64,000 nucleotides of DNA from Medakamo hakoo (lineage: Eukaryota; Chlorophyta; Trebouxiophyceae; Coccomyxaceae). Under the pieces are notes generated by a model. It had not been told where the DNA came from. It searched no databases and saw nothing but the letters and a program-made list of their open reading frames with translations. The translations under genes were made by a program, and so were the position numbers. Of the stretch, positions 24,164 through 51,734 are shown piece by piece. The DNA lies in the NCBI GenBank assembly GCA_026636295.1, contig CP089451.1:310001-374000 (forward strand), written 5' to 3'. Position 1 is the first letter of the stretch. Every line of letters begins with the position of its first letter.

Positions 24164-25663
24164 TCACGCATCCTTAACCACGGGAATGCCCAGCTCCCCA
24201 GCATTCACGATGGACGGCGACGCTTTGGGGACGCCTTCGATCGGGCCGTCGACGAAGCGCAGGACGTCGGGCGACCCCCACGCCGGCGCGCCCTGGAGCC
24301 GGGCCGCCACATTCGCGGCCGCCAGCGTGGCCATGCCGGCGCGCGTCCACAGCGACGCGGACGCAATGTGCGGGACGATGACCGCGTTCGGGCAGTCGGC
24401 CAGCCCGGGCGCCATGGCCGGCTCGTCCTCAAAGACGTCCAGGCCGCACCGGAAGTCGGGGTGCGCCTTGAGGTGCGCCACGAGCGCTTTCTCGTCGACG
24501 ACGGGCCCGCGGGCAGCGTTCACCAGCACGGCCGTCGGCTTCATGGCTTGCAGGCGGGCCGCATTGATCAGGTGGCGGGTGTCGGCGTCCAGGTTGCAGT
24601 GGAGCGAGAGCACGTCCGCCCGCGGCAGCAGCGCGTCGACCGTCGGCACCCGCTCGATGGTGATGCGGCGCTCGCCGTGCTTCTCCAGCAAGTCGCCGTA
24701 GTCTTTGATGTACGCCTCCAGCTTGGTGTTGGGGTACGGGTCGTAGTACAGCACGTCCATCTTGTGTCCCTCCGCCATCATGCGCGCGTACGCCGCGCCG
24801 ATCCGGCCCGCGCCGACGATGCCCACGGTCTTGCCCTGGAGCAGCGACCCCACAAACAGCGTGGGCAGCCAGCCCTTGTAGCGGCCCGCCCGCATGAACA
24901 CGTCGGCTTCGGGCACGCGGCGCGCGGCGGCCAGCGTCAGGGCCGCCGCCAGCTCGGCCGTCGTCTCGGTCAGCACGCCGGGCGTGTTGCCGACGGGGAT
25001 GCCGGCGGCCGTCGCGGCGGGCACGTCCACGTTGTTGTAGCCCACCGCGTAATTCGAAAACGCGGTCCCGCCCGCCTTTTTCAGGCTCTGAAACAGTTCG
25101 GTGCCCCAGTCTTCCGTCAGCTGGCCGATGACGCCGTCGCACCGGTCGCCGATCAGGGCCCGGATCTGGGGGACGGACAGGATCGTGTCGGGCGCCGTGC
25201 ACACCTCGACGCGCGCGCCCGCGCCCGTCAGCAGGGCCAGCCACCGGTCGCCGGGGAGGGGCTTGGTGACGAGGACGCGCTTGGAGCCCGACGGGTTGTG
25301 GACCTGAGGAGGGGTGGGAGAGGGGCTTGGGTGAGAGCGTGTCCCAGGCAGCAGGGGAGGGGGAGGGAGGGTGCAGGAACAAACCACCCACGACCCTCTC
25401 TCGCGCGCGCGCGCCGCTCGGCCGCTCGTGTGCATGCGCCCCGCGCCGCAGCCGATCTCACACCCGCGTCCACCCCCATTCCCGTCCTCCAGCCTTGCCA
25501 GCACCCTCTCCCACCGTCTCACCTCGACGGGCAGGCCACCCGCAGTGGCGGTCGTCGCCATCGCGCGCGTGTTGTTGTGCGTCGTGCGGCCGATGGGCGT
25601 GGTCGGCCGGGCCGCGGCAGCCAGCAGGGCGCGGGACAGGGCGCGGGCCGGGGAGGCGAGCAT
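24164..25663 (-). CDS. HPR1: NAD(P)H-dependent hydroxypyruvate reductase (HPR1 type), probably mitochondrial
   Basis: Exons 25523-25663 and 24164-25303 (426 aa), donor GTGAGA, acceptor CTCAG. It reduces hydroxypyruvate to glycerate in photorespiration. Exon 1 encodes MLASPARALSRALLAAAARP and more Arg/Thr-rich residues, a typical mitochondrial leader; exon 2 opens at VHNPSGSKRVLVTKPLPGDR as in plant HPR1. Seen: DGVIGQLTEDWG, FSNYAVGYNNVDVPAA, NTPGVLTETTAELAAALTLA, Rossmann GIVGAGRIG (about 204-212), catalytic Arg in NAARGPVVDE, Glu in FEDEPAM and His in VPHIASASLWTR. The C-terminus is VVKDA, not the SKL-type peroxisomal signal of land-plant HPR1. It lies 388 bp downstream of the serine:glyoxylate aminotransferase on the same strand. 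Very sure of family; location inferred. Confidence 0.95.
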   Translation of the reverse strand: MLASPARALSRALLAAAARPTTPIGRTTHNNTRAMATTATAGGLPVEVRRWERVLARLEDGNGGGRGCEIGCGAGRMHTSGRAARARERGSWVVCSCTLPPPPLLPGTRSHPSPSPTPPQVHNPSGSKRVLVTKPLPGDRWLALLTGAGARVEVCTAPDTILSVPQIRALIGDRCDGVIGQLTEDWGTELFQSLKKAGGTAFSNYAVGYNNVDVPAATAAGIPVGNTPGVLTETTAELAAALTLAAARRVPEADVFMRAGRYKGWLPTLFVGSLLQGKTVGIVGAGRIGAAYARMMAEGHKMDVLYYDPYPNTKLEAYIKDYGDLLEKHGERRITIERVPTVDALLPRADVLSLHCNLDADTRHLINAARLQAMKPTAVLVNAARGPVVDEKALVAHLKAHPDFRCGLDVFEDEPAMAPGLADCPNAVIVPHIASASLWTRAGMATLAAANVAARLQGAPAWGSPDVLRFVDGPIEGVPKASPSIVNAGELGIPVVKDA

Positions 25664-26051
25664 TGGTTATAAACGAGGGGACACGAGCGCACGCCCTGGG
25701 AGTGGGAGGCGTGGGCTGGTGTGCGTGCGGGAGGGCGGGGCGGAGGGCGCACGGTTGGTGGTAGTGTTCGCCGAGCGGCCGGCTGCAACCCAGCGTTTTT
25801 TTTCTTCCGTCCATCATCCATCCGTTGCTACACACCCCTCCCGCGCCACAGGGACGGCTCTCGCTCTCTCTCTCTCTCTCTCACCTCTCACGCACACACA
25901 CAAACACACACATGCTTCGCTTTTTTGTCTCTCTCTCACACGCACCCTCAAAGAAATCGCACACAAAAAATCACTCCGACCCGGCCCGTCGAGGAAACAC
26001 ACACCCAAAACCCATCTCTCTTTCCATGCCCATCCCATCACCAACCTCCGC
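25664..26051 (-). other. 388-bp spacer between SGAT and HPR, microsatellite-rich
   Basis: Holds the 3' end of the aminotransferase gene and the promoter of HPR. It contains T/A runs, a (CT)n tract near 25861-25881 and a (CA)n tract around 25891-25913. TTATAA occurs at 25668-25673, a few bases upstream of the HPR ATG, too close for a usual TATA box. No gene seen. Confidence 0.5.
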
Positions 26052-27923
26052 TCACTCGCGCGTCGGAATCACCTTCGACGTCTCCGCCCAGTACTTGACG
26101 GCCGCGCCCACACCGGACCCCGGCTCGATCTTGGCGCCCGCGCTCAGCAACGCCATCTCCGTGCCCGCCAGCGCCGACGCCTGCATCACCTCGTCGCAGT
26201 TGCCCAGGTGGCCGATGCGGAAGACCTTGCCGTTGACTTTGGACAGGCCGACGCCGATGGACAGGTTGTACCGGCGGTACGCCTCCTTGACGATGAGGTT
26301 GGAGTCGATGCCCTTCGGCGTCTCGATGACCGTCAGCGAGTCCGACCGCCAGCGCGGGTGCTTGCAGAGCAGGGGCAGGCCCCAGGCCGCGGCCGCGCGG
26401 CGCGTGCCTTCGGCCAGGCGCGCGTGGCGGGCCACGACGTTTTCAAAGCCTTCCGCTTTCAGGAGGTTGAGCGATTCCTGGAGGCCGTACAGCAGCGGGA
26501 TGGACGGCGTGTACGGCACCGACCCGGCCGGGTTGGTGGCCAGCTGGTCGGCCCAGTCAAAGTAGCAGCGCTTGGAGCCGGCGGCCGAGCGGGCAGCCAG
26601 GGCCTTTTCCGAGACCGCGAGCACGGCCAACCCCGTCGGCAGGGACAGCGCCTTTTGCGAGCCGGTCACCGCCACGTCCACGCCCCACTTGTCAAACTGG
26701 AAGTCCAGGGCGCCGATGGACGACACGCCGTCGACGAGCAGGAGCGCGGGGTGGTTGTTCGCGTCCATGGCGGCCCGGACCTTGGCAATGTCGGACGTCA
26801 CGCCCGTCGTCGTCTCGTTGTGCACGACCGCGACGGCCTTGATCTTTTTCCCGGCGTCCTTGGCCAGGGCGGCGGCCAGCCGCTCCTCGTCCGCGCCCTC
26901 ACCCCACTCGCACTCGATCACCTCCACGTCCAGCCCCATGCGCTGCATCATGTCGATCCACAGGTGGGAGAACTGGCCGTAGCGGAAGGTCAGCACCTTG
27001 TCGCCGGGGGACAGCGTGTTGGTCAGGGCCGACTCCCAGCCGCCCGTGCCCGTGCCGGGGAAGATGAAGGACGTGCCCTTCTTAGTGCCGAAGATCATCT
27101 GGTGAGTCGTGTTTTTTTTTAGGTGTTGAGGGGGTGGGGGGTGCGTTGGGAGTGAGAGCACGAGGAAAACAATGGGAGGCGCGCGTTCTGTGCCCTCTCC
27201 CCCCACGCAACGTCCCAGAGGCGCACCTTGACGTCTTCCAGGACCTGCTTGAAAAAGGGAGCAAACCAGGGGTCCCGGTGGTTCTGGGAGGGGCGGTCCA
27301 TGGCGCGCAGCACGTTTTCGTGGATGTTGACGGGGCCTGGGGAGGAGGGCCGGGATGGGAGGCGGGGGGGAGAGTGGGTGGGTGAATGGTGGGAGACGCG
27401 CGGCCGCGGGCGAAAAAGACGTTGTAGTATAGGTCCGGCCTTTCACGCCCACAAACGGGCGGTCGGCGTGGGCTGGGCCCCGCCCTCTTCTCGTCAGTGT
27501 AAAGCTGACCGTCCAGGCCAGCCTCCTGGCTGGAATGTGGGGCGAAAACAGAGGGCGAGGCGCCCGTGGAGCGGCCGGCAATGCAGGCGGTCGAGGAGAG
27601 GGCGCGCAAAAAACGCATGCGTTCTTTTTTTCTCCACGCCCGTCGGACTCACCAGGCACAAACAGGTGGTTCCGCCCCGGCGGAGAGAAGGAGTAGGGCA
27701 CACCCGATGCGTGGCGCCGGGTCAGAGGGCCGGACAGGGCCTGTGAAGGGAAGGGCGGGAGGCGTGAGGACGGCGTGTTGGAGAGACGACAGCCCGGCCC
27801 GGCCTGGAGAGAACCAGCCCGCGCTCCCAAACGCACCTGCCCCTCGGCGGCCGCGCCGCCCGCCCGGCCGGCGCCCGTGGCGGCAGACGCCAGGAGGCGG
27901 GCCAGCTGGCGGTTGGAGCGCAT
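26052..27923 (-). CDS. Serine:glyoxylate aminotransferase (plant AGT1 type), probably mitochondrial
   Basis: Exons 27837-27923, 27653-27740, 27227-27336, 26052-27098 (443 aa; donors GTGCGT, GTGAGT, GTGCGC). A PLP enzyme that moves the amino group of serine (also alanine or asparagine) to glyoxylate, giving glycine and hydroxypyruvate, the HPR substrate. Seen: GRNHLFVPG, PVNIHENVLRAMDR and NHRDPWFAPFFKQVLEDVK, GTGTGGWESALTNTLSPGD, HNETTTGVTSDI, VDGVSSIGALDF and the PLP lysine in VTGSQKALSLPTG (about 243), then YNLSIGVGLSKVNGKVFRIG. Collinear with Arabidopsis AGT1 throughout. Exon 1 adds MRSNRQLARLLASAATGAGR, a mitochondrial-type leader absent from the peroxisomal land-plant enzyme, and the end is PTRE rather than a PTS1. 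Shares a 196-bp gap with glycolate dehydrogenase. Confidence 0.95.
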   Translation of the reverse strand: MRSNRQLARLLASAATGAGRAGGAAAEGQVRLGARAGSLQAGPGCRLSNTPSSRLPPFPSQALSGPLTRRHASGVPYSFSPPGRNHLFVPGESDGRGEKKNACVFCAPSPRPPALPAAPRAPRPLFSPHIPARRLAWTVSFTLTRRGRGPAHADRPFVGVKGRTYTTTSFSPAAARLPPFTHPLSPPPPIPALLPRPRQHPRKRAARHGPPLPEPPGPLVCSLFQAGPGRRQGAPLGRCVGGEGTERAPPIVFLVLSLPTHPPPPQHLKKNTTHQMIFGTKKGTSFIFPGTGTGGWESALTNTLSPGDKVLTFRYGQFSHLWIDMMQRMGLDVEVIECEWGEGADEERLAAALAKDAGKKIKAVAVVHNETTTGVTSDIAKVRAAMDANNHPALLLVDGVSSIGALDFQFDKWGVDVAVTGSQKALSLPTGLAVLAVSEKALAARSAAGSKRCYFDWADQLATNPAGSVPYTPSIPLLYGLQESLNLLKAEGFENVVARHARLAEGTRRAAAAWGLPLLCKHPRWRSDSLTVIETPKGIDSNLIVKEAYRRYNLSIGVGLSKVNGKVFRIGHLGNCDEVMQASALAGTEMALLSAGAKIEPGSGVGAAVKYWAETSKVIPTRE

Positions 27924-28119
27924 GGCTGGGTTGTGGGGATGTGTGTGTGCGCGCTGTGTGAAGGGGGGCCGCCCTGTGTTGCTGCGTTGAGGGGAGTGAA
28001 GGTTGCGTGCCCGACGCTCGCCGCGCCCCACCCTCTTCACTCGGCTTTCGTCGGTGGTTTCTACCCGTCGCGCGCGAAACAAAGCTCCCCCCGCCGCGCC
28101 ACAAAAAAACCGCCCACTC
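27924..28119. promoter_or_regulatory. Shared promoter of SGAT and glycolate dehydrogenase
   Basis: A 196-bp gap separates the two opposed start codons. It has G-rich (GGGGGGCC) and CCACCC stretches and a short A-rich segment just before the glycolate dehydrogenase ATG. No clear TATA box. Both leaders must lie inside it, so one nucleosome-free region probably serves both genes. Confidence 0.6.
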
Positions 28120-31100
28120 ATGGCCGGCCGCCGCGTCCTGGCCGGCGCCCTGGCAGCGGCGTCCCGCTTGCAAGCCGCTTCCAGCGGTGCGGGTGGGGTC
28201 GCGGCCCGCGACGGGTCGCAGGCCCGCGCCATTCGCGTGGCACGCTCGCTCTCGCGGCGGACTGCCACGACGACCACGCCAGCCGCCCGCTCGGCCGCGG
28301 CCTTGCCCGCCACCGCGCCCGCCGTCGAGGACTCCGTCACCCCGCCCCGCCCGCTCATCACGGCCATCAAGACCGACGCCGTCGGCGCCGTCTCCCCCGC
28401 CGACGACGCGCCCGCGGCGTCCCTGTTCCGCAACGAGGACGGCGCGCGCGTGGACGACGGCCGGTATGGCCGTTTCCTGGAAGCCGTGACCGCGTCCGCG
28501 GGCGTGTCCCCGGACCGCATCTTCCAGGACCCGCTGCGCACGTTTGCGTACGCGACAGACGCGTCGTTCTACCGCCTGGTGCCGAAAGCGGTCATCAAGG
28601 TGCGTGGTGGTGGTTGGGAAAGCGGGGAGCGGTGGGGGTGGGTGGTGGTCGGTCGGGGAGGCGCGCCCGCGTGCGGAGAAAGGGCCGGCGCACGGGCTCG
28701 GAGCGAGCCACAGCCGGCCTCGCCACCTGCCGCTGCCTTGTCCGGACGGTTCCGCACCGAGACCGAGTGGCGGCTGGGCGGGCAGAGCCGCGGGTCCCGC
28801 CCGCGCCCGCCACATTCCCCGCTTGACCTCCAACGCCCAACGCCCGTGTCTCTCACGCTCGTCTTCTTCTTTTTTGCTCGACCACCTCTCAGATCACGTC
28901 CGAGGAGGAAGTCGCCAAGATCCTGCCCCTGGCCAAGGCACACGGTGTGCCTGTGACCTTCCGGGCGGCAGGGACGTCGCTGTCGGGACAGGTGCGTTTT
29001 TTTTCGTTGCGGCGGGGGTAGGGGCTGGCGCCGATGCTTGTTTTTTTTGTGTGGCGCGCGTGCTTGCGTGCACCCGGCCGTGCCAGCACGGCCACGCACC
29101 CTGCCGCGACTGCGCCAGGCCTGTGGTCCGAGGGCCGTACCATGTTCTGGTGGCGGGTGGGAGGCGGTGCACGCCCGCACGGTGTGCCACAAGCCGTCCG
29201 AGGACGGCTCCGGGATATAGTAGGAGGGGAGGGGAGGGGAGGGGCGCGGAGGGCCGCGCGCAGCGACCTGGCCCTGCCCGGCGCCATCCAAGAAGACTCC
29301 GCCTGGGGGAGAGCGCGACCCGTCGACGCGCCCACCCCACACTCACCCTCCCTGCCTCCCCCCACTGCCCTCCCCACCCCACCCCACCCCCACCCCCACA
29401 GGCCATCACCGACTCCGTCCTCTTGAAGCTGTCGCACACGGGCAAGGCCTTCCGCCGGTACACCGTCCACGGCGACGGCTCCCGCATCACCGTCGAGCCC
29501 GGCCTCATCGGCGGCGAGGTCAACGCCATCCTCGCCCGCCACAAGGTCGCGGGCGGCCACCCGGTCCAGTACAAGATCGGGCCGGACCCGTCGTCCATCG
29601 ATTCCTGCATGATCGGCGGCATCGTCTCCAACAACTCGTCCGGCATGTGCTGCGGCGTCTCGCAAAACACGTACCACACGCTGGCCGACATGCGCATCGT
29701 CCTGTCCGACGGCACGGTGCTGGACACGGCCGACCCGGCGAGCGTGGCGGCGTTTGAGAAGTCGCACGCCCGGCTCCTGACGGGCGTGTCGTCGCTCGCG
29801 GCGCGCGTCCAGGCGGACGCCCAGCTGTCGGCCCTCATCCGCCGCAAGTTCGCCATCAAGTGCACGACCGGCTACTCCCTCAACGCGCTCGTCGACTTCC
29901 CGGCCGACCGCCCCGTGGAGATCGTCAAGCGCCTCATGATCGGGTCGGAAGGCACGTTCGGCTTCGTCTCGCAGGCCACGTACAACACCGTCCCGGAATG
30001 GCCGCACAAGGCGTCCGCCTTCGTCATGTTCCCGGACGTCCACGCCGCCTGCTCCGCCGCGTCGGTGTTGCGCGACCAGACGGCGGTCGACGCGGTGGAG
30101 ATGTTTGACCGCGCCTCCCTGAAGCAGTGCGAGAAGGACGAGGCCATGCTGTCGCTCGTGCCCGACATGGTCGGCGCGGACGAGCGCGCGGCCGCGCTGC
30201 TCATCGAATGCCGGGGCGAGACGCCCGGCGCGCTGGAGGAACGCATCGCCGAAGTGCGGCGCGCGCTCCTGGGCGCGGGCCTGCCGTTCGGCGCGACGGC
30301 GGCGGCCCCGAAAGCCCTGGACGCGTACGAGTTCAAGCACGAGGCGCGCGACTACAAGGTGTACTGGGACGTGCGCAAGGGCCTCATCCCCATCGTCGGC
30401 GGCGCCCGCGAGCCGGGGACGTCCATGCTCATCGAGGACGTGGCCTGCCCGGTCGACCGCCTGGCCGACATGACCGTGGACCTGGCCGACATGTTTGCCC
30501 GGTACGGCTACCCGGACGCGTCCTGCTTCGGCCACGCGCTGGAGGGCAACCTCCACCTCGTCTTCGCCCAGGGCTTCCGCACGCCGGAGGAGGTGCAGCG
30601 CTTCGCGGACATGATGGAGGAGATGTGCTACATCGTCGCGACCAAGCACCGGGGGTCGCTCAAGGGCGAGCACGGCACGGGCCGCAACGTCGCGCCCTTC
30701 GTCGAGATGGAGTGGGGGACCAAGGTGCGTTGTGTGGGTGGTGGGGCCGGGGGGGCGTGCGGGTGGTGGGCGGGCCGCCCGCCTGGCCCGCCCCAGCCCG
30801 CCTGGCAGGCGTGGGTGGTCTGTGCGCGAGGCTGGGCGGTGGGCGGGGCGCCCTGTCCCGCGCCCGACCGTCGCTTTTTTTGAACCCGCACTTCTCTGAC
30901 GGCTCCATCCCAACCCGCCCCTCCCCCCCCCCCCCAAAAAAAAAACTCCCGCACTCCAGGCCTACGAACTGATGTGGGAGTTGAAAGCTCTGTTCGACCC
31001 GGACAACGTCCTCAACCCGGGCGTCGTCCTGAACCGGGACCCGGACTTGCACGTCAAAAACCTCAAGCCCTCGCCCGTGGCGTCCCCGCTGGTCGACCGG

Positions 31101-32411
31101 TGCATCGAGTGCGGGTTCTGCGAGTCCAACTGCCCGTCCCGGGACGGCGCGCTCACGCCGCGCCAGCGCATCACCTCCTTCCGCGAGATCAGCCGCCTCA
31201 AGGGCCTCGTCGCCGACGGGTCCGCGTCCGCCGCCGACGCGGCGCGCCTGTCCGAACTGGAGGGCGCGTACGAGTACGCGGGCAAGGAAATGTGCGCGGC
31301 CGACGGCATGTGCCAGGAGAAGTGCCCCGTCAAGATCAACACGGGCGACCTGATCAAGGAGCTGCGGGCCGCGGACGTGGCGGCGGCGCCCCGGGCGGCT
31401 GCCTTCGCCGGCAAGCTGGCCGACAACATGGGCGCGGTGACGGCGGCCGTCCCGCCCTTCCTCAACGCGGTCGACCTCGCGCGCCGGGTGTTGGGCGCGG
31501 GCACGCTCGAATCCATTTCGGGCGCGCTCAACCGGTGGAGCGGGCGCATGATCCCGACGTACAACGCGTACATGCCCACCGGCGCGCCCCGCTTGCCGTC
31601 CGAACTCAAGTCCGCGTCGGAGGCCGGGCCGGCGCCCGCGCCGCCGAAAGGCTCCGTCACGCCGCGCCGGGCGGTCTACCTGCCGTCGTGCGTGACGCGC
31701 ATGATGGGCCCCGCCGGCTCCGACCCGGAGGGCAAGGCCGCCGCGCCCGCCGACCGGCTCGTGTCCCTGGCGGCCAAGGCCGGGTGGGAGGTCGTCACGC
31801 CGGACGGGCTGAACGGGCTGTGCTGCGGCATGATGTTTGGGTCCAAAGGCTTTGCCGACGCGGCGGCCAAGGCGGCGGCCCGCACCATCGCGGCCCTGGA
31901 AGCCGCGTCCGAGGGCGGGCGCCTGCCCATCGTGTGCGACACGTCGCCCTGCACGGCGACGCTGAAAGCGGCCCTGCCGGCGGGCTCCCCCCTGCGCTTC
32001 GCCATGCACGAGCCCGTCGGCTTCGTGTCCACGCACCTGGCCCCGTCCCTGGACTTTGAAAAGGTCGCGGGCCGCGTCGCCGTCCACGTCCCCTGCTCGT
32101 CCAAAAAGATGGGCGCGACCGCCGCGTTCGAGGCGTTGGTCGGCAAGTGCGCGGACGCTGTCGTGCCGTCGGGCGTGCCCTGCTGCGGCATGGCGGGCGA
32201 CCGCGGCATGCGGTACCCGGAGCTGACGGGCGGGTCGCTGCAGCACCTGAACACGGCCGGCTGCGAGGCGGGCGTGTCGACGTCGCGCACGTGCGAGATG
32301 TCGCTGTCCAACCATTCGGGCCTGCACTGGCGGGGCGTGCTGGACTTGGTGGACCGGGCGGCCCGGCCCAAGGGGAGTGTCAGCGAGAGCGACGCGGAAG
32401 CGGCGGCTTGA
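28120..32411 (+). CDS. GYD1: Glycolate dehydrogenase, FAD plus Fe-S fusion, mitochondrial (GYD1 type)
   Basis: Exons 28120-28599, 28893-28991, 29402-30724, 30960-32411 (1117 aa; three GTGCGT donors). It oxidises glycolate (and possibly D-lactate) to glyoxylate and passes electrons to the respiratory chain. The length and order match the Chlamydomonas enzyme: a 60-residue Arg/Ala/Ser leader; FAD-binding PCMH domain (TFRAAGTSLSGQAITDSVLL, GGIVSNNSSGMCCG, MIGSEGTFGFVSQ); FAD-oxidase C domain ending GHALEGNLHLVF and GSLKGEHGTGRNV; then a GlcF-like half with CIECGFCESNCP (about 682) and CAADGMCQEKCP (about 746), the second cluster having Asp in place of a Cys as is usual here; finally two CCG domains (NGLCCGMMFGSKG; VPCCGMAGDRG). 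Ends EAAA, no PTS1. Centre of the photorespiratory block. Confidence 0.97.
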
Positions 32412-32775
32412 CGCGTCGAGGGGTGAGGGGGTGAGAGACAGGCGCGCGGTGGGGTGGGATGGGATGGAGAGAGAGCGACCGGGTCTCTCAACAAACGACG
32501 ACGACGGCACCAGCAGGACGGGGTTAGACTTTTCCACATTTTTTGTTTGGGCGCGGTGGGGCCGGGCACGGGGCCGGGGCCGCTGCGTGGACGCGTGAGG
32601 GACGTGGGGACGGAGTGAGACCGGAGAGGCGGTGGTTGGTGTTGTGAGAAACAAAGAGAGAGAGAAGCGAAAAAAGACCCCGCAGGGCCACACAGCTGGC
32701 TGGCTTCAGCCGCGCACACTCTCTCTCTTCTCCTCGCCGCGCGGCCGCCTGCGCACACCTCCGTTTTCTCCACAC
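32412..32775 (+). other. 364-bp spacer after glycolate dehydrogenase
   Basis: The 3' end of glycolate dehydrogenase and 5' region of the first Cys-rich gene. It contains GGGGTGGGATGGGATGGA-type G-rich repeats, a GAGA tract and a T6 run. No gene or RNA recognised. Confidence 0.5.
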
Positions 32776-33488
32776 ATGCGCCTGGCTCTTGCTTTGCTGG
32801 TGTCGCTGGCGTGTCTGGCCGCCAGGGCAGCAGGTGCGAGAGCAGGCGCCGGCGCTTGACTTTGATGAAAGCTCGCTTTGCCGCTCTTTTGGGCTGCGCC
32901 GCCCCGCCCCGCCCCGCTCGACCCCGGCCCCCGCACGACCCCCACACCACCCACACACCCCGTCCCCTCACGCGCGCGCACGCCCGCTCCCTCCCCTCCC
33001 CCCACACACACGGCCGTCACCGCCCCACCCACCCACCACCCACCACAGCCGACTGCGCCGACTCGGTCGGCCGCATCGCCGCCGGCCCCTGCGCGGCCAT
33101 GGTGCCCGTCTTCCAGGCGCACGCGCCGGAGCTGGCGTCGTACGGGGCGGGCGCCGCCACCTGCGCCCGGCTGAAGGCCCAGGTGGAAGCCTGGCTGCCG
33201 CCGGACCTGGGCACGCAGGTCTGCTGTGAAGCCATCCGCGTCTTTGCCGCGGACGGCTGCGTGTGCGACCCGGTCGTCGCCGACATGTTGCTCGGGCTGC
33301 GCCTCCTGCCGCCGGGCGCGGCGGCGGAGCCCACGATCGCGGGCGCGGTCGCCCTCGTCCAGGCCGGGCCCTGTTCCACCGCGGCCAACGGCGGCCCGCT
33401 CCTGGAGGCGTGCACCGGCTCGGTCGGGTGCGGGCCCGACCTGGCGGCAGCGTGGGAAGCTGAGGCCGCCCGGCCCGCGGGCGCATGA
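32776..33488 (+). CDS. Small secreted protein with ten cysteines, copy 1
   Basis: Exons 32776-32833 and 33049-33488 (165 aa), donor GTGCGA, acceptor CACAG, phase 1. Exon 1 codes a signal peptide (MRLALALLVSLACLAARAAG). The mature part has ten Cys in the order C, C, C, CC, CxC, C, C, C (DCADSV; GPCAAM; ATCARL; VCCEAI; DGCVCDP; GPCSTA; EACTG; VGCGPD) with mostly helical, Ala/Leu-rich spacing. The C..CC..CxC..C..C core recalls the eight-cysteine motif of plant lipid-transfer proteins, but spacings are longer and two Cys are extra, so relationship is only a suggestion. Function unknown. It and copy 2 sit inside the photorespiratory block. Confidence 0.75.
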
Positions 33489-33726
33489 GAGGCGGCGGGC
33501 GGGGTGTGGCGTTGTAGGCACAGGCGTGGGACGTGTGCACCATTCTTGAGGGCGAGGTCAGACAACAGGCGGTGGCGGCGGTGGTGGTGCTGAGTGGAGA
33601 CCCCCCCCCGCCTGAGGGGTGTGACGACGACTCATAGATTGAAACGCGGGCTGACGGCATCGGCGTCGCACGAACCCGCTCGCCCCGCCCAATCAACCCA
33701 CCAGCTTTCAGCCAAAACACGCCCAT

Positions 33727-34327
33727 ATGCTTCTCCTTTTGTTGGCCTGTCTAACTAGCATAACGTGGGGAGTCAAAGGTGCGTGCCGCCGCGGTGAATC
33801 GTGCCGGAAAAATTAGCGGCGGTCGAGCCATGTGCACGCTCAACCTGGCCCGACCCCACCTCACCCCCACCCCCTCACGCTCGCCAGCGGATTGCGCCGA
33901 CGCCGCCGGCCGCTTGGCGTCCGGCCCCTGCGCGGCCCTGGTGCCCGTCTTCCAGGCGCACGCCCGCGAACTCGCGTCGTTCGGCGGTGGCGGCACGCCC
34001 TGCGCCCGCCTGAAGGCGCAGGTCGACGCCTGGCTCCCGTCCGACCTGTCCACCGCCGCCTGCTGCGAGTCCGTGCGCGCCTTTGCGGCCGACGGGTGCG
34101 TGTGCGACCCCGTCGTGGCGGACATGCTGCTGGGGCTGAAAGTGCTGCCGGCCGGCGCGCCGGCGGAGCCCACGATTGCGGGCGCGGTCGCCCTCGTCCA
34201 GGCCGGGCCGTGCTCCGCCGCGGCCAACGGCGGCCCTCTCCTCGAAATGTGCTCGGGGAGCCTGGGGTGTGGGCCGGAGCTGGTGGCGGTGTGGGATGCC
34301 GCGGCGGCCGGCCCCGCGGGCGCGTGA
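33727..34327 (+). CDS. Small secreted protein with ten cysteines, copy 2
   Basis: Exons 33727-33778 and 33888-34327 (163 aa), donor GTGCGT, acceptor GCCAG. Its second exon is exactly as long as that of copy 1 (440 nt), the intron is in the same place and phase, and all ten Cys align; most other positions in the mature domain are also identical (for example GCVCDPVVADMLLGL and AEPTIAGAVALVQAGPC). The signal peptides differ (MLLLLLACLTSITWGVKG here) and the two introns are unrelated in sequence. This is a tandem duplication with conserved mature protein and divergent leader. Function unknown. Confidence 0.75.
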
Positions 34328-34556
34328 CCCGAGAGAGAGGAGAGAGCGGGGACTGCGGACGTGCCCTGTGTGGGCGCCTGGCAGAGCGGCCTGACGGAGT
34401 CGGCCAGGCCGACGGCGCCTGGCAGAGGTGGAACAGGTGCGGGCCGAGCGGCCTGACAGTCGGCCAGGCCGACGCTGGCCAGACGCTGCTTTCCCTTCAC
34501 GCGCGCGCAGGCTCCGCGCGCACAAACCCCTGTAAAAACACACCACACTTACCTCC
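34328..34556 (+). promoter_or_regulatory. Upstream region of the AGXT-type gene with twin palindromes
   Basis: GTCGGCCAGGCCGAC, a perfect 15-bp palindrome, occurs at 34399-34413 and again at 34459-34473, exactly 60 bp apart. Each is preceded by the repeated AGCGGCCTGAC. It lies 84-158 bp before the ATG of the AGXT-type aminotransferase. Could be operator sites for a dimeric regulator or just a decayed 60-bp duplication. Confidence 0.45.
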
Positions 34557-36295
34557 ATGGCCCGCGGATCATCCGCAGCTCGCCGCCTGGCGGGCGCGCT
34601 GTTCGCCCGCGCGGCGGCCGGCGTGGAGACCACGACCGCTGGCGCCGGCTCGACCGCGCGCGGCTTTGCTTCCAAGACCGGCGGCGGCGGCGTGCGCCCG
34701 GGCGAGCCTTCCCCTGCGGTCAAGGCGGCTGCCGGGCCGAAGGGTGTCATTGATGTGAGTGGGTGGGATAGGGCAGGGAGTTGTGTGTCCTGTGCGTCGG
34801 CCCGTGTGTTTTTCGCCCGAGACGAGCGCGCGCGCACTCGGAGGGTCGATTGGGGGAGGCAGCAGCTCGGGACGACGGTCCGAAACGCCGCTGCGGCGGG
34901 TTGAAGCCTGGCGACCTGGTGCACCCCATTGGGTGGCACAGATGCCGCGCTTGAGCCTGGACGAGGCGGAATGGCCGGCACGTGCCAGCCCACGCCGGCG
35001 CGCGCCACGCAATGCGGGCGCCCGTAGTAGACGCGGCCGAGGAGGGTCGCGCGCTGGGGCCCGACCACCACCACGCCCCTGTCCCCCGTCCCTGCACCCC
35101 CGTCCCTCGCACGCCCCCCGCCCTCCCACTCCCACACACACACGCATGCACCCAAACCCAAACACAGGTCCCGTCCCGCCTGCTCATGGGCCCGGGCCCG
35201 GCCAACGCCCACCCCCGCGTCCTGGCCGCCCAGACCCTGCCCCTGCTGGGCCACCTCCACCCGCCCTTCACCAAGATCATGGACGAGATCCAGGACGGCC
35301 TGCGCTACGTCTTCCAGACGGGCTCGCCCAACGTCCTGATGGTGTCGGGCACCGGCCACGCGGGCATGGAAGCCTGCATCACCAACCTGGTCGAACCGGG
35401 CGAGACCATCGTCGTGGGGAACAAGGGCATCTGGGGCGCGCGCGTGTGCGACATGGCCGGCCGGTACGGGGCCAACGTCGTGGAGCTGACCACGCCGGCG
35501 GGGAGCACCTTTGACATCGACACGCTGGCGTCTGCGCTGCGCAAGCACAAGCCTGCCGTGCTCTTCCTGTGCCAGGGCGAGTCCAGCACGGGCGTCCACC
35601 AGTCGTTGGCCGGCCTGGGCGACCTGTGCCGTGAGACGGGCACGCTGCTGCTGGTCGACACCGTCTGCTCCCTGGGCGGCGTGCCCATGTTTGCGGACGC
35701 GTGGGGCGTGGACGCCATTTACTCGGGGTCCCAGAAAGTCCTGTCGGGCCCGCCCGGCGGCGCCCCGCTCTTCTTCGGCCCCCGCGCCATGGAAAAGTTG
35801 GCCCGCCGCACCTCCAAGCCGACGTCCTACCAGCTGGACATGAACCTGGTCGGCGCGTACTGGAACTGGCCGGAAGCGGGCGGCCAGCGCATCTACCACC
35901 ACACGGGGTGCGTGTCCACCTGGTACGCCATGCGCGAAGCCCTGGCCCTGGTGGGCGAGGAGGGGCTGGAGGCCATGTGGGCCAACCACGGCCGCCTGCA
36001 CGACAAGCTGTGGGAGGGCCTGGGCCGCCTGGGCCTGGAACCCTTCGTCCCCAAGCCCGAAGACCGCCTGGCGACCGTCAACACCATCAAAGTGCCCGAC
36101 GGCGTGGACTGGGCCGCGCTCATCAAGCACGCCATGGACAAGTACGCCGTCGAGATTGCGGGCGGCCTGGGCCCGAGCGCGGGCAAGGTGTGGCGCGTCG
36201 GCATCATGGGCTACAACGCCACGGACGCCAACGTCCAGCTGGTCCTGGACGTCATCGAAGACGGCCTCAAGGCGCAGGGCAAGCTGCGCAAGTGA
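34557..36295 (+). CDS. Alanine:glyoxylate aminotransferase, AGXT type, probably mitochondrial
   Basis: Exons 34557-34754 and 35168-36295 (441 aa), donor GTGAGT, acceptor AACACAG. PLP enzyme converting glyoxylate to glycine with alanine (or serine) as donor. Exon 1 is a leader (MARGSSAARRLAGALFARAA... GFASKTG). The core follows animal AGXT rather than plant AGT1: RLLMGPGPANAHPRVLAAQT, MDEIQDGLRYVFQTG, VSGTGHAGMEACITNLVEPG, GESSTGVHQSL, VDTVCSLGG, PLP lysine in YSGSQKVLSGPPGGAPL (about 256), YHHTGCVSTWYAMREALAL and GGLGPSAGKVWRVGIMGYNA. The last residues are KLRK, no peroxisomal signal. It is the second glyoxylate aminotransferase of the block, from a different branch of the fold. A 27-G run starts five bases after its stop codon. 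Confidence 0.95.
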
Positions 36296-36774
36296 GGGCG
36301 GGGGGGGGGGGGGGGGGGGGGGGGGGAGGAGGAGGGGCGGGCTGGGCGGCGCCGCTGGCGAAGCCGGCCGCCCAGTGAGCGGGCGGGGTGGGGGGGTGGA
36401 GTGTTGCAGGGAGGAGGCTGTGCGTGAAGAGGAGAGGAGTGGGAGAGTTTCTTCTTTTTCGTGTGAGTGCGCTCTGATTCTTGTTTCGTTGTGTGGAGGG
36501 GAGTCGCGCATAGAGGGGGGCGCGGGCGGGGCGCGGGCGCGGCACACTCACCGTGTTCTCTCAGATGTCACCAGGCGGCGGCGATGATGCAAAGGTCAAA
36601 AAAAGTCGACGAAAAAACAATGCTACAAACTCAAAGGGCCGCGCAACGCAACGCGGCACCCCCTTCTCTCTCACTCTCTCACTCTCACACTGTCTGTCCA
36701 CGCAAAAAGAAAAAAAAAATCAATGGACGCTCTCGAACCCTCTCAAAAGACTCTCTCCAAAAAAAAAAACACGC
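36296..36774. other. 479-bp convergent intergenic stretch with a long G run
   Basis: 3' regions of the AGXT-type gene and the carrier. Contains a 27-G run, GGAGGA repeats, (CT)n/(CA)n near 36661-36690, and several A runs (36707-36719, 36761-36769). No gene seen. Confidence 0.5.
36300..36326 (+). repeat. G27 homopolymer
   Basis: Twenty-seven consecutive G between converging genes, five bases after a stop codon. Able in principle to form G-quadruplexes in the transcript of the AGXT-type gene. Its true length may be mis-called in assembly. Confidence 0.8.
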
Positions 36775-38242
36775 TCACCGCTCGAGCGGGCTGGCCGCCT
36801 CCAGCGGGCTGCCGACGGCGCCCCCACCCCCACCAGCGGGCGCGGCCGTCACAGCCACAGGCGCCCCCGCTCCCGCCCCCGCCCCCGCCCCCTGCTGCTG
36901 CTGCTTGTTCAGCATGGCGGTCACCTTGTCGACGGTCAGCAGCATGACGCCGTTGGCCGGGACCGCGCGCAGCAGGCACGGCGCGAAGCCGCGGTAGAAG
37001 CGGGCGGCGCCGCCCTCGGCCCACAGCGCCCGGGCGGCGTCCAGCGGGCCGGAGAACCGGCGCTGGGACGGGGTGATGGCGTCCGACTGGATGGCGGACT
37101 TGATGACGTCGACGGGGAAGATGGCGAGCCAGTAGAGGAGGCCGCCGACGCCCGCCGCGCCGACGACCGTCAGGGCGGGGAGGTCGGCCTTGGCGCAGCC
37201 CGCCCGCGCGGCCGCCCGGTCTTTCAGGGCTTCGAAGGAACCCAGGTAAATGGCGTTGGCGGGCGTGTTGCGGGCGAGGGTGACGCCCAAGCCCTGGAAG
37301 GGCCCGCGCAGCCCGCTCGCGGCCAGCGTCGCTTTCACGCACCCGGAGACGGTCGTGTAGGGCGGGACGTACGACGGGTCGGCCCGCGCCCGGACGGCTT
37401 GGACCTGGATCTGGGACTTGTAAAAGTCGATGGGCCCCTCCGCGAACGCGGCGACAAAGCCCGTCATGGCGCCGGCCTTGAAGTAGTCGGCGTCGGTCAG
37501 CGGCCGCGCGCCGTCACCAGACAGCCAGCGCTTGGCCGCACCAAATGCGCCAAAGAGCGTCGCGCGGAAAACCATTTGGCCGGCCAGGGGGGAGGCGACG
37601 CCCTTGTACAGGCCGGCCACGCCCTCGGACGCGAGCGTTTTGCGGACGCAGTCCAGGGCGCCGGCTGTTCCGGTGGGGTGTGGCGGGAGGGAGGCAGGGG
37701 GTGGGAGGAGCCGTGAGGGCGGGGGGGGGCGCGGTGGTTAGGGTCGGGCGGGCGCGGGTCTCAACAGGGAGGGAGGAGGCGCCGCGGCCCGCGCGTGCAA
37801 GAAAACTCACAGTACACCGGGTTGGCAGTCGGCTGGGTTTGCAGGCGGACTTTCACGGTGTCGAACGGGTGGCCGACCATGGTGACGGCGATGCCGCCTG
37901 TGTGTTTTGTTTTTGATGGACGGGGCGTGAGTGGAGTGGGTGGGTGGGTGGTTCGGCGTGAGAGCAGCGCGAGAGCAGCGGCGCGCGCGTGCTCGTTTTC
38001 CGCCAATGCGCGGGCGTTGCAGGGCCGGGACACCCCGTCTCACGCTTCGTGAGCCACATCCAAGCACGTCTGCACCCAGGACGAGGGACGGAAGAGGGTA
38101 CAACCCCCCTCAAAGCCTTTGGCACGCGCCCCCACGCCCAAAGCCTCGCACGAACGAAACTCCTACGCCTCAACTCACCGCACGTCCCCGCAATCACGTC
38201 CTTGACGGCCTTGAACGGGTCCGCCTGAGGAGCGGGCGCCAT
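36775..38242 (-). CDS. Mitochondrial carrier (SLC25), carnitine/ornithine/BOU-like branch
   Basis: Exons 38179-38242, 37811-37897, 36775-37664 (346 aa; both donors GTGAGT). Three repeats each carry the Px[D/E]xx[K/R] signature: GHPFDTVKVRLQTQ, EGPIDFYKSQIQVQ and IFPVDVIKSAIQSD, with second-half motifs EGVAGLYKG, GPFQGLG and GGAARFYRGF, giving six membrane helices. The middle signature starts with Gly instead of Pro, an odd substitution. The first repeat resembles the acylcarnitine/BOU group; in Arabidopsis BOU is a mitochondrial carrier required for photorespiration, which fits the neighbours, but YMC- or ornithine-type transport is equally open. A QQQQ plus Gly/Ala tail extends the C-terminus. 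Head-to-head with the RraA-like gene (217 bp). Confidence 0.88.
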
Positions 38243-38459
38243 GGTTGAGAGACGCGGAGGTATATGATAGGCTCCTGGGTGGTTGGGAGTGGGCGGAAGC
38301 CGCGGAGTTGGGTACAAGCCGTGTTCCTTCCGTTCCTTGTGGAGCGCGAGCAAAAAAAAGTTTTCCGCTCTGGCCAGACCGCCCCCATTCGCTCGTTTCC
38401 TCTCTTCATCTCCCGCCGGCCGCCCCACAGTGTCCCGCCGAGCCACAGTGGCTTCCCTC
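38243..38459. promoter_or_regulatory. Shared promoter of carrier and RraA-like gene
   Basis: A 217-bp gap between opposed ATGs. TATATGATA at 38261-38269 lies 19 bp upstream of the carrier start codon. An A7 run sits at 38352-38358 and a CCCCACAG before the RraA start could be a splice acceptor in its leader. Confidence 0.5.
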
Positions 38460-39239
38460 ATGCTTGCCCGTGCAGCACGCAGCCTCCTGCGCCCATCCAC
38501 CGTGGGCGGGTCAGGCGCCGCCTTTGGCCTGGGCCTGGGCGCCGGATCGCAGTGGGACGGCGCACGCTGCGCCGCCGCTGCGGCCGGCCCATCAAACCCT
38601 TACCCGCCGCCCGACGCGAGCCGCGGCGCAACAGCGGACTTGACCGACGTCCATTGTCCCTCGCCTGTCGACACTGTGTCAAACGGGCCTGTGCAAATCA
38701 TGGAGGCCGGACTGTTCAGGTGCGATGTGTTGGGGACAAGGGGGAGGGGGGAGGGGGTGGGGGTGGATGGAGGGTGGATGGAAAAAAAAAAAAAACTCAC
38801 AAAACCCGCGCCGCCTCCAAACAACAGGGATTACGGCGGCCGCCTGGCCTTCTCCGGCCGGGCCACCACCGTCCGGTGCTTCGAAGCCAACCCGCTCGTC
38901 CGCACCTGCCTGGAAGAGCCGGGCCATGGCCGGGTGCTGGTCGTCGACGGTGGCGGGTCCAAACGGTGCGCCCTCCTCGGCGACAACATCGCCGCCATGG
39001 CGGTGTCCAACGGCTGGTCGGGGATCATCATCCACGGCTGCATCCGCGACTCCGCGGACATCGGGACCATGGACTTGGGCGTGAAAGCGCTGGCGACCCA
39101 CCCCCTGAAAAGCGCGAAACGCGACAAAGGCCTCCGAGACGTCCCGGTTTCCTTTGCGGGCGTGCGCGTCCAGCCGGGCGACTGGGTGTACGCGGATGGG
39201 GATGGCGTGCTGGTCTCGCCGACGGAGCTGAAGCTGTGA
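38460..39239 (+). CDS. RraA-fold protein (HMG aldolase/oxaloacetate decarboxylase-like), probably mitochondrial
   Basis: Exons 38460-38719 and 38828-39239 (223 aa), donor GTGCGA after TTCAG, phase 2. Start chosen for the leader [15 protein letters not shown], a mitochondrial-type presequence. The core has the RraA-fold markers: [35 protein letters not shown], and [20 protein letters not shown], with the G-D and R-D residues that hold metal and pyruvoyl substrate in HMG/CHA aldolases; ends [20 protein letters not shown]. The fold covers RNase E inhibitors in bacteria and class II pyruvate aldolases with oxaloacetate decarboxylase side activity; plant members are enzymes of uncertain physiological substrate. 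Its place beside the photorespiratory genes is suggestive only. Confidence 0.88.
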
Positions 39240-40654: not shown

Positions 40655-40773
40655 TCGGACGAGAGGTGTGCTGGACGGGCGAAAGACGGAGTGAGGCGCG
40701 GGGCCGACAAGGTTCGGCGCTTTATTCGCGCGAATTCGTATTTCTGTGCGGCGCTCGCCGCACGGAATAAACG
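40655..40773. promoter_or_regulatory. Compact divergent promoter with nested inverted repeats
   Basis: Within 119 bp there is a perfect 7-bp stem with 4-nt loop (GTGCGGC 40746-40752, GCCGCAC 40757-40763) flanked by a wider inverted pair TTTATTC (40721-40727) and GAATAAA (40765-40771), and a small palindrome TTCGCGCGAA at 40725-40734. The AT-rich arms are rare in this genome and may serve as core elements for the two directions. Confidence 0.5.
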
Positions 40774-42125
40774 ATGCGCGGCACCGTTGCCGCCGCTTTG
40801 GCCCTGGGTTGTGGTGCTGTCTGGGCGCAGGTGGGTGCGCTCCACCCGCCCGGCTGGGCTGTGATGCCGGTAGAAAGCCCGGGCGCGCGTGCGGCGAGGC
40901 CGGCGCGGACAGCGGCCGGCTGACGAACTCCCCCCACCCCCAACCTCGACAGGCCGCGGCTTTCACACCGGCCGACTCCGCCTCCCTCGCCCGTGCGACC
41001 GCCTTGGCCGCCGGCGTGGCCAACAGCAAGGCCTCCATAGCCGCACCAGCCCGCGCAGCAGCGTTTGGCGCGGCCCTCGCAGAACCCCTGCCGTCCCTGC
41101 CGCGCAAGCCTCCGTACCCGCCCGGGCTCTGCACGTCACCCTGCCCGCTCCCGCCGCGCGCGCCCTGCCGCGCCTGCACGCCCGGCGCCGCCTGCCCGTC
41201 CAAAGTCTACCCGGGCTCGCGTGCGTCCCGCAACTATACCTACTGCGTCAACGACTTCCGGCGCACGTGCGCGGACCCGCTGAATGAAGGGTGCGCGGCC
41301 TGTAATTTGTTCCGCGACGTCTCGGCCCGGTGCACGCCCGGCGCCCCATCCCCCAGCGGCTGTGTGGACCGCGGCGACTACGCCTGGCTGCCGGCGCGCG
41401 AAGAGCTGGACGTCGACACCAACGGCACCCGCCCGCTGTTGTGCGCGTGCGAGACGCAGTGGCTGCTCGTCCCGACGACGCCCTGCACAGGCGTCGAGGC
41501 GGAGGACCCGGCCTGCACAGGGTCGGCTGCCGAACGGTGGTGGGCCTTTGCGTTCAGAGAAGCGGCCGGCACGGGCCTCTTTGAGACCAAAGTCGACGGG
41601 TCTGCGCCAGAACGGTGGGCCGTAGTCGTCAACGCAGCCAACCGCCGGTCCCAGCACCAGACGCACTTGCGGGTCGGCCGCCTCAACCCCAGCCTGCCGC
41701 CCGCCTTTGGCGACCTCATGGACAGGTGGAGGGCGACGCGGGCGTTCAGCCCGGACCCGCTGCGGCCCACCATCACGACGCCGAGCCCGGCGTCCATTGG
41801 CCCGGACCCGAAGGGTGAGGTGCAAGCGCCCTTGGTCGCGACCGTCTTTGTGCCTGGCGGCGTGGCGGTCGCGAAACCGTGGCAGACAGGCGCGGTGGTG
41901 GCCGCTGCTGCGCCTGGTGGAGCGTCCCGGCCGTACGGCATCCTCGCCTCGCCCTGGGCCCAAGCCGGCCTGCCTGGAGTCACTGTCTCGGCCATCTTCG
42001 ACGTCGGGTCGACCCAGCTGCTGATAGAAGACGCGCGGGCGGGCGACTGCGTTGCGCCGTGCTATGTGTGGGAAGGGGAGGATGCGGGGAGTGGGCTGGC
42101 GCCGCTGGGGAAAGGCACAGATTAG
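40774..42125 (+). CDS. Secreted Cys-rich protein with Cdh/HIT-like domain
   Basis: Exons 40774-40830 and 40953-42125 (409 aa), donor GTGGGT, acceptor GACAG. Exon 1 is a signal peptide MRGTVAAALALGCGAVWAQ. A helical spacer is followed by a Cys-dense segment (CTSPCPLPPRAPCRAC, CPSK, YCVNDFRRTCADPLNEGCAA, ARCTPG) and then a domain with RWWAFAFREAAGTGLFE and WAVVVNAANRRSQHQTHLRVG, which resembles bacterial CDP-diacylglycerol diphosphatase (its 'aiNS..GRSQDQLHIHI'). The histidine triad is only partly kept (H-x2-H instead of HxHxH). Function outside the cell or in the secretory path is inferred from the signal peptide; family membership is tentative. Confidence 0.65.
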
Positions 42126-49483: not shown

Positions 49484-51734
49484 TCACCCGCCCTCCTCCT
49501 CCTCCTCACCCGGCGCCCAGCGCGGCGTGCCCGCCAAGTCCACGCGGTCCAGGCGGACGACGCCCACCAGCGCCTCCGGCAGTTCGGGCTCTTCGTTGCC
49601 CTGCACCAGCAGCGCGATGTCGATGACCAGGCCGCGCACCGCGCCCTGGACCAGGCCGACCACGTGGGCGGCGGTGCGCGAGGACCCGACGTCGACGTCC
49701 ACCTCAAAGTGGCGCGGGCCCGCGTGGTAGGTCGCATCGATTTTGGTGGCGAGCAGGCAGGGCGTGTTCTGCCCGACCGCGCGCTGCAACACCCAGCCGG
49801 CGCCGTCCGTCAGGCGCGGAATGATTTTAAAAGCACCCGCGCGGGCGGTGGACGCGTCGGCGGACGGGTTGGCCGCAGAGACGCCCGCCACGAAGCGGGC
49901 GAGGGCGAGGTCGAACGGGGCCAGGCCGGCCACCGACGGCGACGCGGCGTGCAGGTGATCCGCCCACCAGGGCCGGGCGGGCGGGGACGGGGGCGAGGAG
50001 GGGGCCGGTCCCGCGCGTGGTGGCGGTGGGTGGTGGGTGGCGGCAGCAGCCGCGGCCGCCAGCGCGTCGCCGTTCACCGCCGTCGCGGCGCGGCGGTGGC
50101 CCGCGCCAGCCGCCGCGCCGGGCGGGCGGGCGGCGTCGGTCGCTGACACCGCCGACCGTTCCACGGCCACGGCCGCAGCCGACGCGGCCGCCGCGCCCGC
50201 AGCCGCGGCCGCCCGGGCGTCGTCGGCGTCGGCGTCGCCGGCAGGGTCTGGTCGGCCGCCGCCGCCGCCGCCCGGCGCCCGGCCCGGCCGCCACCAAGGC
50301 CCGCCGCCGTCCTCAGTCGTGGTGGGTGGCGGCGGCGGCGGCGCCGCCGCCGCCGCCGCACCTCCGACCGGCGGCACTGGGCTCAGCCCGGGAGGCGGGC
50401 GCACCGCCACCCGCGGCCCGGGGACGGGCCGCCCCGTCAGCGCACCGCACACCGCGGCTTCCGCGCGGGCCAGCGGGCAGTAGTCCAGCGACCAGGCCGC
50501 CGTCAGGGACAGCGCGCCGCCCCGCCCGGGCACGGACACCTGCCACACGAGCGTGAAGGGGGCCGGCGAGCGCGACACGGCCGGCAAGTACCGGGCAATG
50601 TGCTGGACGGGCGCGTCCAGCCGCACCAGCTCGACGGCGGCCAGGCGCGCGGCCGTGGCCGGCGGCGCAACTTTTGACCCGTCGGCCAGGTAGGTCGCGC
50701 TGCGCACGCGGAACCCGGCCGCGCCCGGGTCGCAGAAGCATGCGGCCGGCAGGGAGGAGGATGTCGGTGCGGTCGGTGCGGGCGGGCGGCGGGGCCCCGC
50801 CCCCACGCTTGGGCGGACGGCGGGGGCGGCGCCGTTGGCGCGCGGCGCCGCCTTGGTGGTGGTGGGGGGTGGGGGTGCAGGTCCGCCGGCCGTCGGCGGT
50901 GGGGCAGGGCCCGGCCCGCCGCCGCCACCACCCCCGCCGCCGTGGCCTCGCCGCCTCCTCCGCCGGCGTCTCAAAGCGGCTTCCGCTTCGGCGGCAAGGG
51001 CAGCACTGCCGGGGCGCAGCCCGCCCAAGCGGTGGGCGCGGGCGACGAGCGCCTCAGCCGCGGCGGTTGCGGCCGCGTCGTCGTCGCCTGCCGCGGGGAC
51101 GGCGGCCGCGGCGGCCGCGCCGTTGGCCAGCACGCCCGCAAAAGCCAGGCCGGCCAACAGCGGCAGCAGCAGCACGGCCGCCCGCCCGCCCGGGTCCGCC
51201 GCCTGGAACGCGAGCAGCGCGGTGCCTGCGGTCGCGGCGAGGGCAGCCACGTCCGCGGCCGCGGCCAGCGCCGCCGCCCGCCTGGACACGCGGTGGTGCG
51301 TGAAAAAAAACAGGGGCGGCCAGGCCGCGGTGGCTGCAGCGGCTAAGGCAGCATACGACAGCGCCGCCGCCGCGCGTGTGTGCGGTTGGGCCCCCGGCGC
51401 CGTGACGGCCCGGTGCGCGCCCGCGCCGGCCGCGACAAAGGCGGCCGCCCACCAGCGCAGGCGCTTGTGCGGCTTTGCCGGGCGCGGGCCGGTCGGGTGG
51501 GCCACCCCATCCTCCACGCCGTGTGCTCGCCTCCAGACCAGGGTCAGGGCGAAGGGCAGGGCGATGGCGGCGGCCTGGTGGTGTGTGTTTTGTGTGGAGT
51601 GGAGGTAGAGAGTGTGGGGCAGGTTGCGCGGAACGGACCGTGCTGCATTGCCTTTCCCATCGCCGGCGTGGGCGGCCCACGCCCCGATCGCCACACGCCC
51701 CACGCACCAGCGTCGCCAATGACGAGTCGATCAT
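49484..51734 (-). CDS. TspO/MBR - EDR2_C (DUF1336) fusion membrane protein
   Basis: Exons 51708-51734 (27 nt) and 49484-51574 (705 aa), donor GTGCGT, acceptor CACCAG. Residues about 9-170 look like TspO: first helix AAIALPFALTLVWRR, WWAAAFVAAGAGAHRAV, ALSYAALAAAATAAWPPLFF, a helix with ADVAALAATAGTALLAFQAAD, and LLLPLLAGLAFAGVLANGAA. TspO binds porphyrins and sterols. The C-terminal half has EDR2_C features: FRVRSATYLADGSK, VQHIARYLPAV, FTLVWQVSVPG, then after a long disordered insert FKIIPRLTDGAGWVLQRAVG, CLLATKIDATYH, HFEVDVDVGSSRTAAHVVGL, LVQGNEEPELPEALVGVVRL. One continuous frame joins them, so the fusion is genuine unless a splice is missed. Role inferred: lipid or tetrapyrrole handling at a membrane. 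Confidence 0.82.

Follow-up and report, generated by a model that had tools for sequence, protein, structure and literature searches.

A compact nuclear gene cluster in a GC-rich alga, probably serving the glycolate/glyoxylate arm of photorespiration

Grouping of photorespiratory genes in green-algal nuclear genomes is already on record. The sections of Foflonker and Blaby-Haas (2020; PMC7826186) on which we draw name photorespiration as one of five functional clusters previously reported in green algae, credit it to Foflonker et al. (2016) in Picochlorum (SENEW3), and recover a photorespiration neighbourhood in at least two classes by conserved-neighbourhood analysis; they also describe four known neighbourhoods as co-expressed in Chlamydomonas, the four not being named in that text. 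The Picochlorum cluster is restated in PMC12198440. In Chlamydomonas, chromosome-6 identifiers (Cre06) are given to GYD1, SHMT2, AGT1, HPR1 and GDC-H, with about 16 identifier steps from AGT1 to HPR1, SGAT is placed on chromosome 1 (PMC8320531, Table 2), and the photorespiratory genes have the low-CO2 regulator CIA5 in common (PMC8320531). The Chlamydomonas GYD1 and HPR1 proteins are mitochondrial (PMC11548211, PMC8264790). The locus described here resembles the Picochlorum and other green-algal clusters, as far as the cited sections portray them, in grouping photorespiratory genes in a nuclear genome, and by annotation it matches the enzyme set of the Chlamydomonas glycolate pathway (GYD1, AGT1, SGAT and HPR1). 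It differs from Chlamydomonas in holding all four enzymes within about 12 kb; there, chromosome 1 has SGAT and the rest are strung along chromosome 6. Because green-algal photorespiration clusters have been published, the clustering itself is not new, and the view of an earlier, sequence-only reading of this DNA that it was unexpected does not stand. Its remark that these genes are not tightly grouped in Chlamydomonas passes over the several homologues that share chromosome 6.

The block (24164-39239) lies in a 64-kb window, which is the whole stretch of DNA analysed, and is a compact nuclear region with introns in which Pfam searches of open reading frames and spliced models place eight genes in 15 kb (Table 1). 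Spliced models are complete, with GT-AG introns, for HPR, SGAT, GDH, AGT, the carrier and RraA. These are the six genes named in the sequence-only reading, whose enzyme names, positions (exact at both ends of the interval) and eukaryotic assignment are all borne out; two tandem secreted-looking proteins between GDH and AGT had been overlooked. The four C2 enzymes fall inside seven consecutive genes, HPR, SGAT and GDH being direct neighbours, and the gene models and Pfam matches thus put at least two photorespiratory genes inside about six genes, as in a gene neighbourhood of this kind. A ketoacyl synthase gene on the left and genes for a secreted CDH-like protein and a histone deacetylase on the right (Pfam) make the edges of the C2 block clear. 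Codon usage of the cluster matches that of the flanking genes (r = 0.99) and the 64-kb window contains no N runs; nothing here hints at a chimaera or a foreign insert. Intergenic gaps inside the block measure 97-479 bp, as befits a compact genome. The 64-kb window yielded no gene for glycine decarboxylase, SHMT, glycerate kinase or phosphoglycolate phosphatase, an Rfam search gave no match, and a search for relatives in viral contigs returned one weak fragment and no useful relative.

Table 1. Features of the photorespiratory block, with positions in the 64-kb window.
Feature	Size	Position	Strand	Evidence and exons
Hydroxypyruvate reductase, HPR1-like (HPR)	426 aa	24164..25663	-	PF02826, 8e-49; 2 exons (25523-25663, 24164-25303)
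Serine:glyoxylate aminotransferase, plant type (SGAT)	443 aa	26052..27923	-	4 exons; spliced model
Divergent, possibly bidirectional promoter, SGAT/GDH	196 bp	27924..28119	.	Gene models, start-codon spacing
Glycolate dehydrogenase, single chain (GDH)	1117 aa	28120..32411	+	PF01565, PF02913, Fer4_8, CCG; 4 exons
Small cysteine-rich protein, signal-peptide-like N-terminus	165 aa	32776..33488	+	Spliced model
Tandem paralogue of the preceding protein	163 aa	33727..34327	+	Spliced model
AGXT-type alanine:glyoxylate aminotransferase (AGT)	441 aa	34557..36295	+	2 exons; spliced model
Mitochondrial carrier (SLC25) family protein	346 aa	36775..38242	-	PF00153, 3e-42; 3 exons (38179-38242, 37811-37897, 36775-37664)
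Divergent promoter region, carrier/RraA	217 bp	38243..38459	.	Gene models, start-codon spacing
RraA / class II pyruvate-aldolase family protein	223 aa	38460..39239	+	PF03737, 2e-45; 2 exons

Several other features of the window may be recorded here. The secreted-looking protein adjoining the block (40746-42125, +) has a weak CDP-diacylglycerol pyrophosphatase (CDH) match. A single open reading frame at 49487-51703 (-) matches both TspO/MBR and the EDR2 C-terminal domain and may represent a gene fusion or read-through from one gene into another, and the gene at 56506-59391 (-) encodes a SacI-homology domain and, after it, a WW domain, as in plant SAC9. There is also a weak ribosomal Thx match, which, with the SAC9-like protein, the EDR2 C-terminal match and the plant-type SGAT, would be in keeping with a green alga. 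A tRNA-Ala(CGC) call at 61625-61699 (-), in a stretch of 80% GC, is possibly spurious.

GDH carries an N-terminal extension of about 125 aa and joins an FAD-oxidase, two 4Fe-4S motifs and CCG domains, so that FAD-oxidase and Fe-S/CCG parts lie in a single chain as in GYD1-type enzymes. Its best prokaryotic relatives are fused bacterial proteins of about 950 aa, 34-46% identical to it along their entire length; it scores below the cut-offs of the NCBIfam equivalogs GlcD and YdiJ, and a scan of genome contigs turned up homologues of the dehydrogenase from bacteria only. The dehydrogenase is the only member of the block with a clearly bacterial-like architecture, and acquisition of the whole as a bacterial operon by horizontal transfer is ruled out by the introns, the native codon usage and the plant-type SGAT. 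The best PDB matches of HPR are glyoxylate reductases (4e-53), plant HPR1 being absent among the matches listed, and the catalytic R/E/H motifs of 2-hydroxyacid dehydrogenase domains are present; it probably resembles Arabidopsis HPR1. SGAT has its best, full-length match in Arabidopsis SGAT (6pk1; 3e-139, 467 bits), far ahead of the next family (1.5e-48, 169 bits), and retains the PLP lysine (GSQK). AGT, which also has its PLP lysine, matches the AGT structures 2huf (4e-119, 401 bits) and 1vjo (6e-119) and human AGXT (about 1e-105) well above Arabidopsis SGAT 6pk1 (merely 9e-33, 117 bits). The two aminotransferases are only 30% identical and have different closest families, and therefore represent separate subfamilies; a recent tandem duplication is ruled out on the same grounds. 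The sequence-only reading had called the clustered families unrelated, but SGAT and AGT both belong to the class-V aminotransferases, one superfamily.

In land plants, these four enzyme activities sit in peroxisomes, and glycine decarboxylase and SHMT are mitochondrial in land plants and Chlamydomonas alike. The N-termini of HPR, SGAT, GDH, AGT and RraA are basic, with many Arg, Ala and Ser and hardly any acidic residues, and none of these five proteins ends in a canonical peroxisomal signal (PTS1). The basic extensions and the lack of a peroxisomal tail are best read as marking a mitochondrial glycolate/glyoxylate module, and we consider it probable that the block is a nuclear cluster for this arm of photorespiration in a GC-rich, probably green alga, with mitochondrial enzymes as in Chlamydomonas; the two unrelated-looking secreted proteins inside the block count against this reading, as do the four photorespiratory genes missing from the 64-kb window. 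Glycolate made in the plastid would enter the mitochondrion, where the fused FAD/Fe-S dehydrogenase would oxidize it to glyoxylate and pass electrons to the respiratory quinone pool, and AGT would convert glyoxylate and alanine to glycine. After conversion of glycine to serine by glycine decarboxylase/SHMT, predicted to be encoded outside the block, SGAT would use a second glyoxylate to turn serine into hydroxypyruvate, which HPR would reduce to glycerate for export. Since glycine decarboxylase/SHMT act between AGT and SGAT, the four steps are not the single consecutive run suggested by the sequence-only reading but two pairs (glycolate to glycine, and serine to glycerate).

The carrier could move a C2-cycle acid or an amino-group partner through the inner membrane. 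Its membership of the SLC25 family is evident from three PX[DE]XXK repeats, and in an alignment with UCP2 (7e-22) it shows R-N at the helix-4 contact pair and apparently G at the helix-2 contact point. Under a contact-point rule ascribed to Robinson and Kunji, R-[QHNT] reportedly suggests transport of oxo-acids and R-[DE] that of amino acids, and R-N would then be a weak hint of an oxo-acid carrier. The pair distinguishes this protein from BOU and the carnitine carrier, in which it is R-[DE]. The family also includes BOU, linked to photorespiration, and Chlamydomonas CCP1/CCP2, which are mitochondrial, induced at low CO2 and of uncertain role (PMC5102585, PMC11548211, PMC10096703). RraA scores 207 bits against NCBIfam PRK09372 (cut-off 136) and has an intact D-X20-R-D-X2-D motif. 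This motif is typical of class II pyruvate aldolases, and the protein thus resembles the 4-hydroxy-4-methyl-2-oxoglutarate aldolase family, from which it differs by its basic N-terminal extension, suggestive of mitochondrial import. It may act on 2-oxoacids derived from pyruvate or glyoxylate, for instance by cleaving 4-hydroxy-2-oxoglutarate or decarboxylating oxaloacetate; the former reaction, yielding pyruvate and glyoxylate, would connect it to the C2 pathway, and a literature search for RraA tied to photorespiration found no such link. More speculatively, and with rather low probability, SLC25 would be the inner-membrane carrier for glycolate, glycerate or hydroxypyruvate in algae with the mitochondrial pathway and mitochondrial RraA a repair aldolase that splits a pyruvate-glyoxylate adduct, the cluster then combining transport, core and repair. 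The two small cysteine-rich proteins between GDH and AGT are 73% identical and match no known family, the first of them having neither a Pfam nor an NCBIfam match.

If linkage has been maintained by selection, which seems the most likely course, this would reflect joint induction at low CO2 and co-inheritance of the steps around toxic glyoxylate, with the two divergent promoters of about 200 bp as the likely regulatory units. Spacing of this order is weak evidence by itself because the genome is compact. No 7-mer is common to all four promoter regions of the block; one 10-mer, CCGCCCACTC, occurs in both divergent promoters (0.18 expected) and is not convincing. None of these promoters contains GANTTNC, the low-CO2 enhancer motif of Chlamydomonas, and a shared promoter code was rejected, no motif being held in common beyond chance. 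Selection for co-regulation of the block nonetheless remains plausible.

Other accounts of the linkage must be set against this one. An accident of gene order or an assembly artefact is most improbable. The block is known from a single contig, yet its codon usage is uniform, there are no N runs, genes are intact at every junction and precedents have been published in other green algae. Under random gene order, the chance of finding any four of about 12 C2 genes inside eight adjacent genes among about 10,000 is about 1e-6, a rough estimate with assumed gene numbers; even when hundreds of pathways are allowed for, the grouping is not a matter of chance, as the earlier claim of real, non-random clustering had it. 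An appreciably better candidate, although still an unlikely one, is that the block descends from an old green-algal linkage group, also visible as loose linkage on Chlamydomonas chromosome 6, and has persisted because a compact genome rearranges slowly, not through selection for co-regulation. Locus identifiers in Chlamydomonas advance in steps of 50. The presence of GYD1, SHMT2, AGT1 and HPR1 on Cre06, with AGT1 and HPR1 about 16 such steps apart (PMC8320531), would favour a relic, the probability that one chromosome carries five of the 17-18 C2 genes being about 0.01 when calculated post hoc, as would the unrelated genes inside the block and the failure to find a common promoter element. The four-enzyme grouping is, however, far tighter than background, and the cited sections of PMC7826186 count the green-algal photorespiration neighbourhood among the known ones, four of which are described as co-expressed; both points speak against a relic.

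A different question is whether the module is dedicated to photorespiration. Work cited in PMC4722173 found that the glycolate dehydrogenase of Chlamydomonas handles D-lactate about as efficiently as glycolate, so that the substrate of GDH cannot be fixed from its sequence. Among the bacterial homologues, four of 37 loci (L003, L006, L007 and L010) have the fused FAD/Fe-S dehydrogenase gene just downstream of TRAP-type transporter genes, which suggests use of an imported hydroxy acid and would fit lactate or glycolate. It is conceivable on these grounds, though rather unlikely, that GDH is mainly a D-lactate dehydrogenase and the cluster a general 2-hydroxyacid/glyoxylate module; its linkage to SGAT, AGT and HPR, however, points specifically to glycolate.

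On the preferred reading of a mitochondrial photorespiratory module, what is distinctive about this locus is its size: the association of four enzymes with a carrier and an RraA protein points to it as a source of candidates for missing mitochondrial steps. Even for plants, the routes that take photorespiratory intermediates over the inner mitochondrial membrane are for the most part unassigned (PMC8146403), and guilt by linkage makes the carrier and RraA two concrete candidates for unassigned steps. The compact cluster may also offer a template for transferring the algal mitochondrial glycolate pathway as a single unit.
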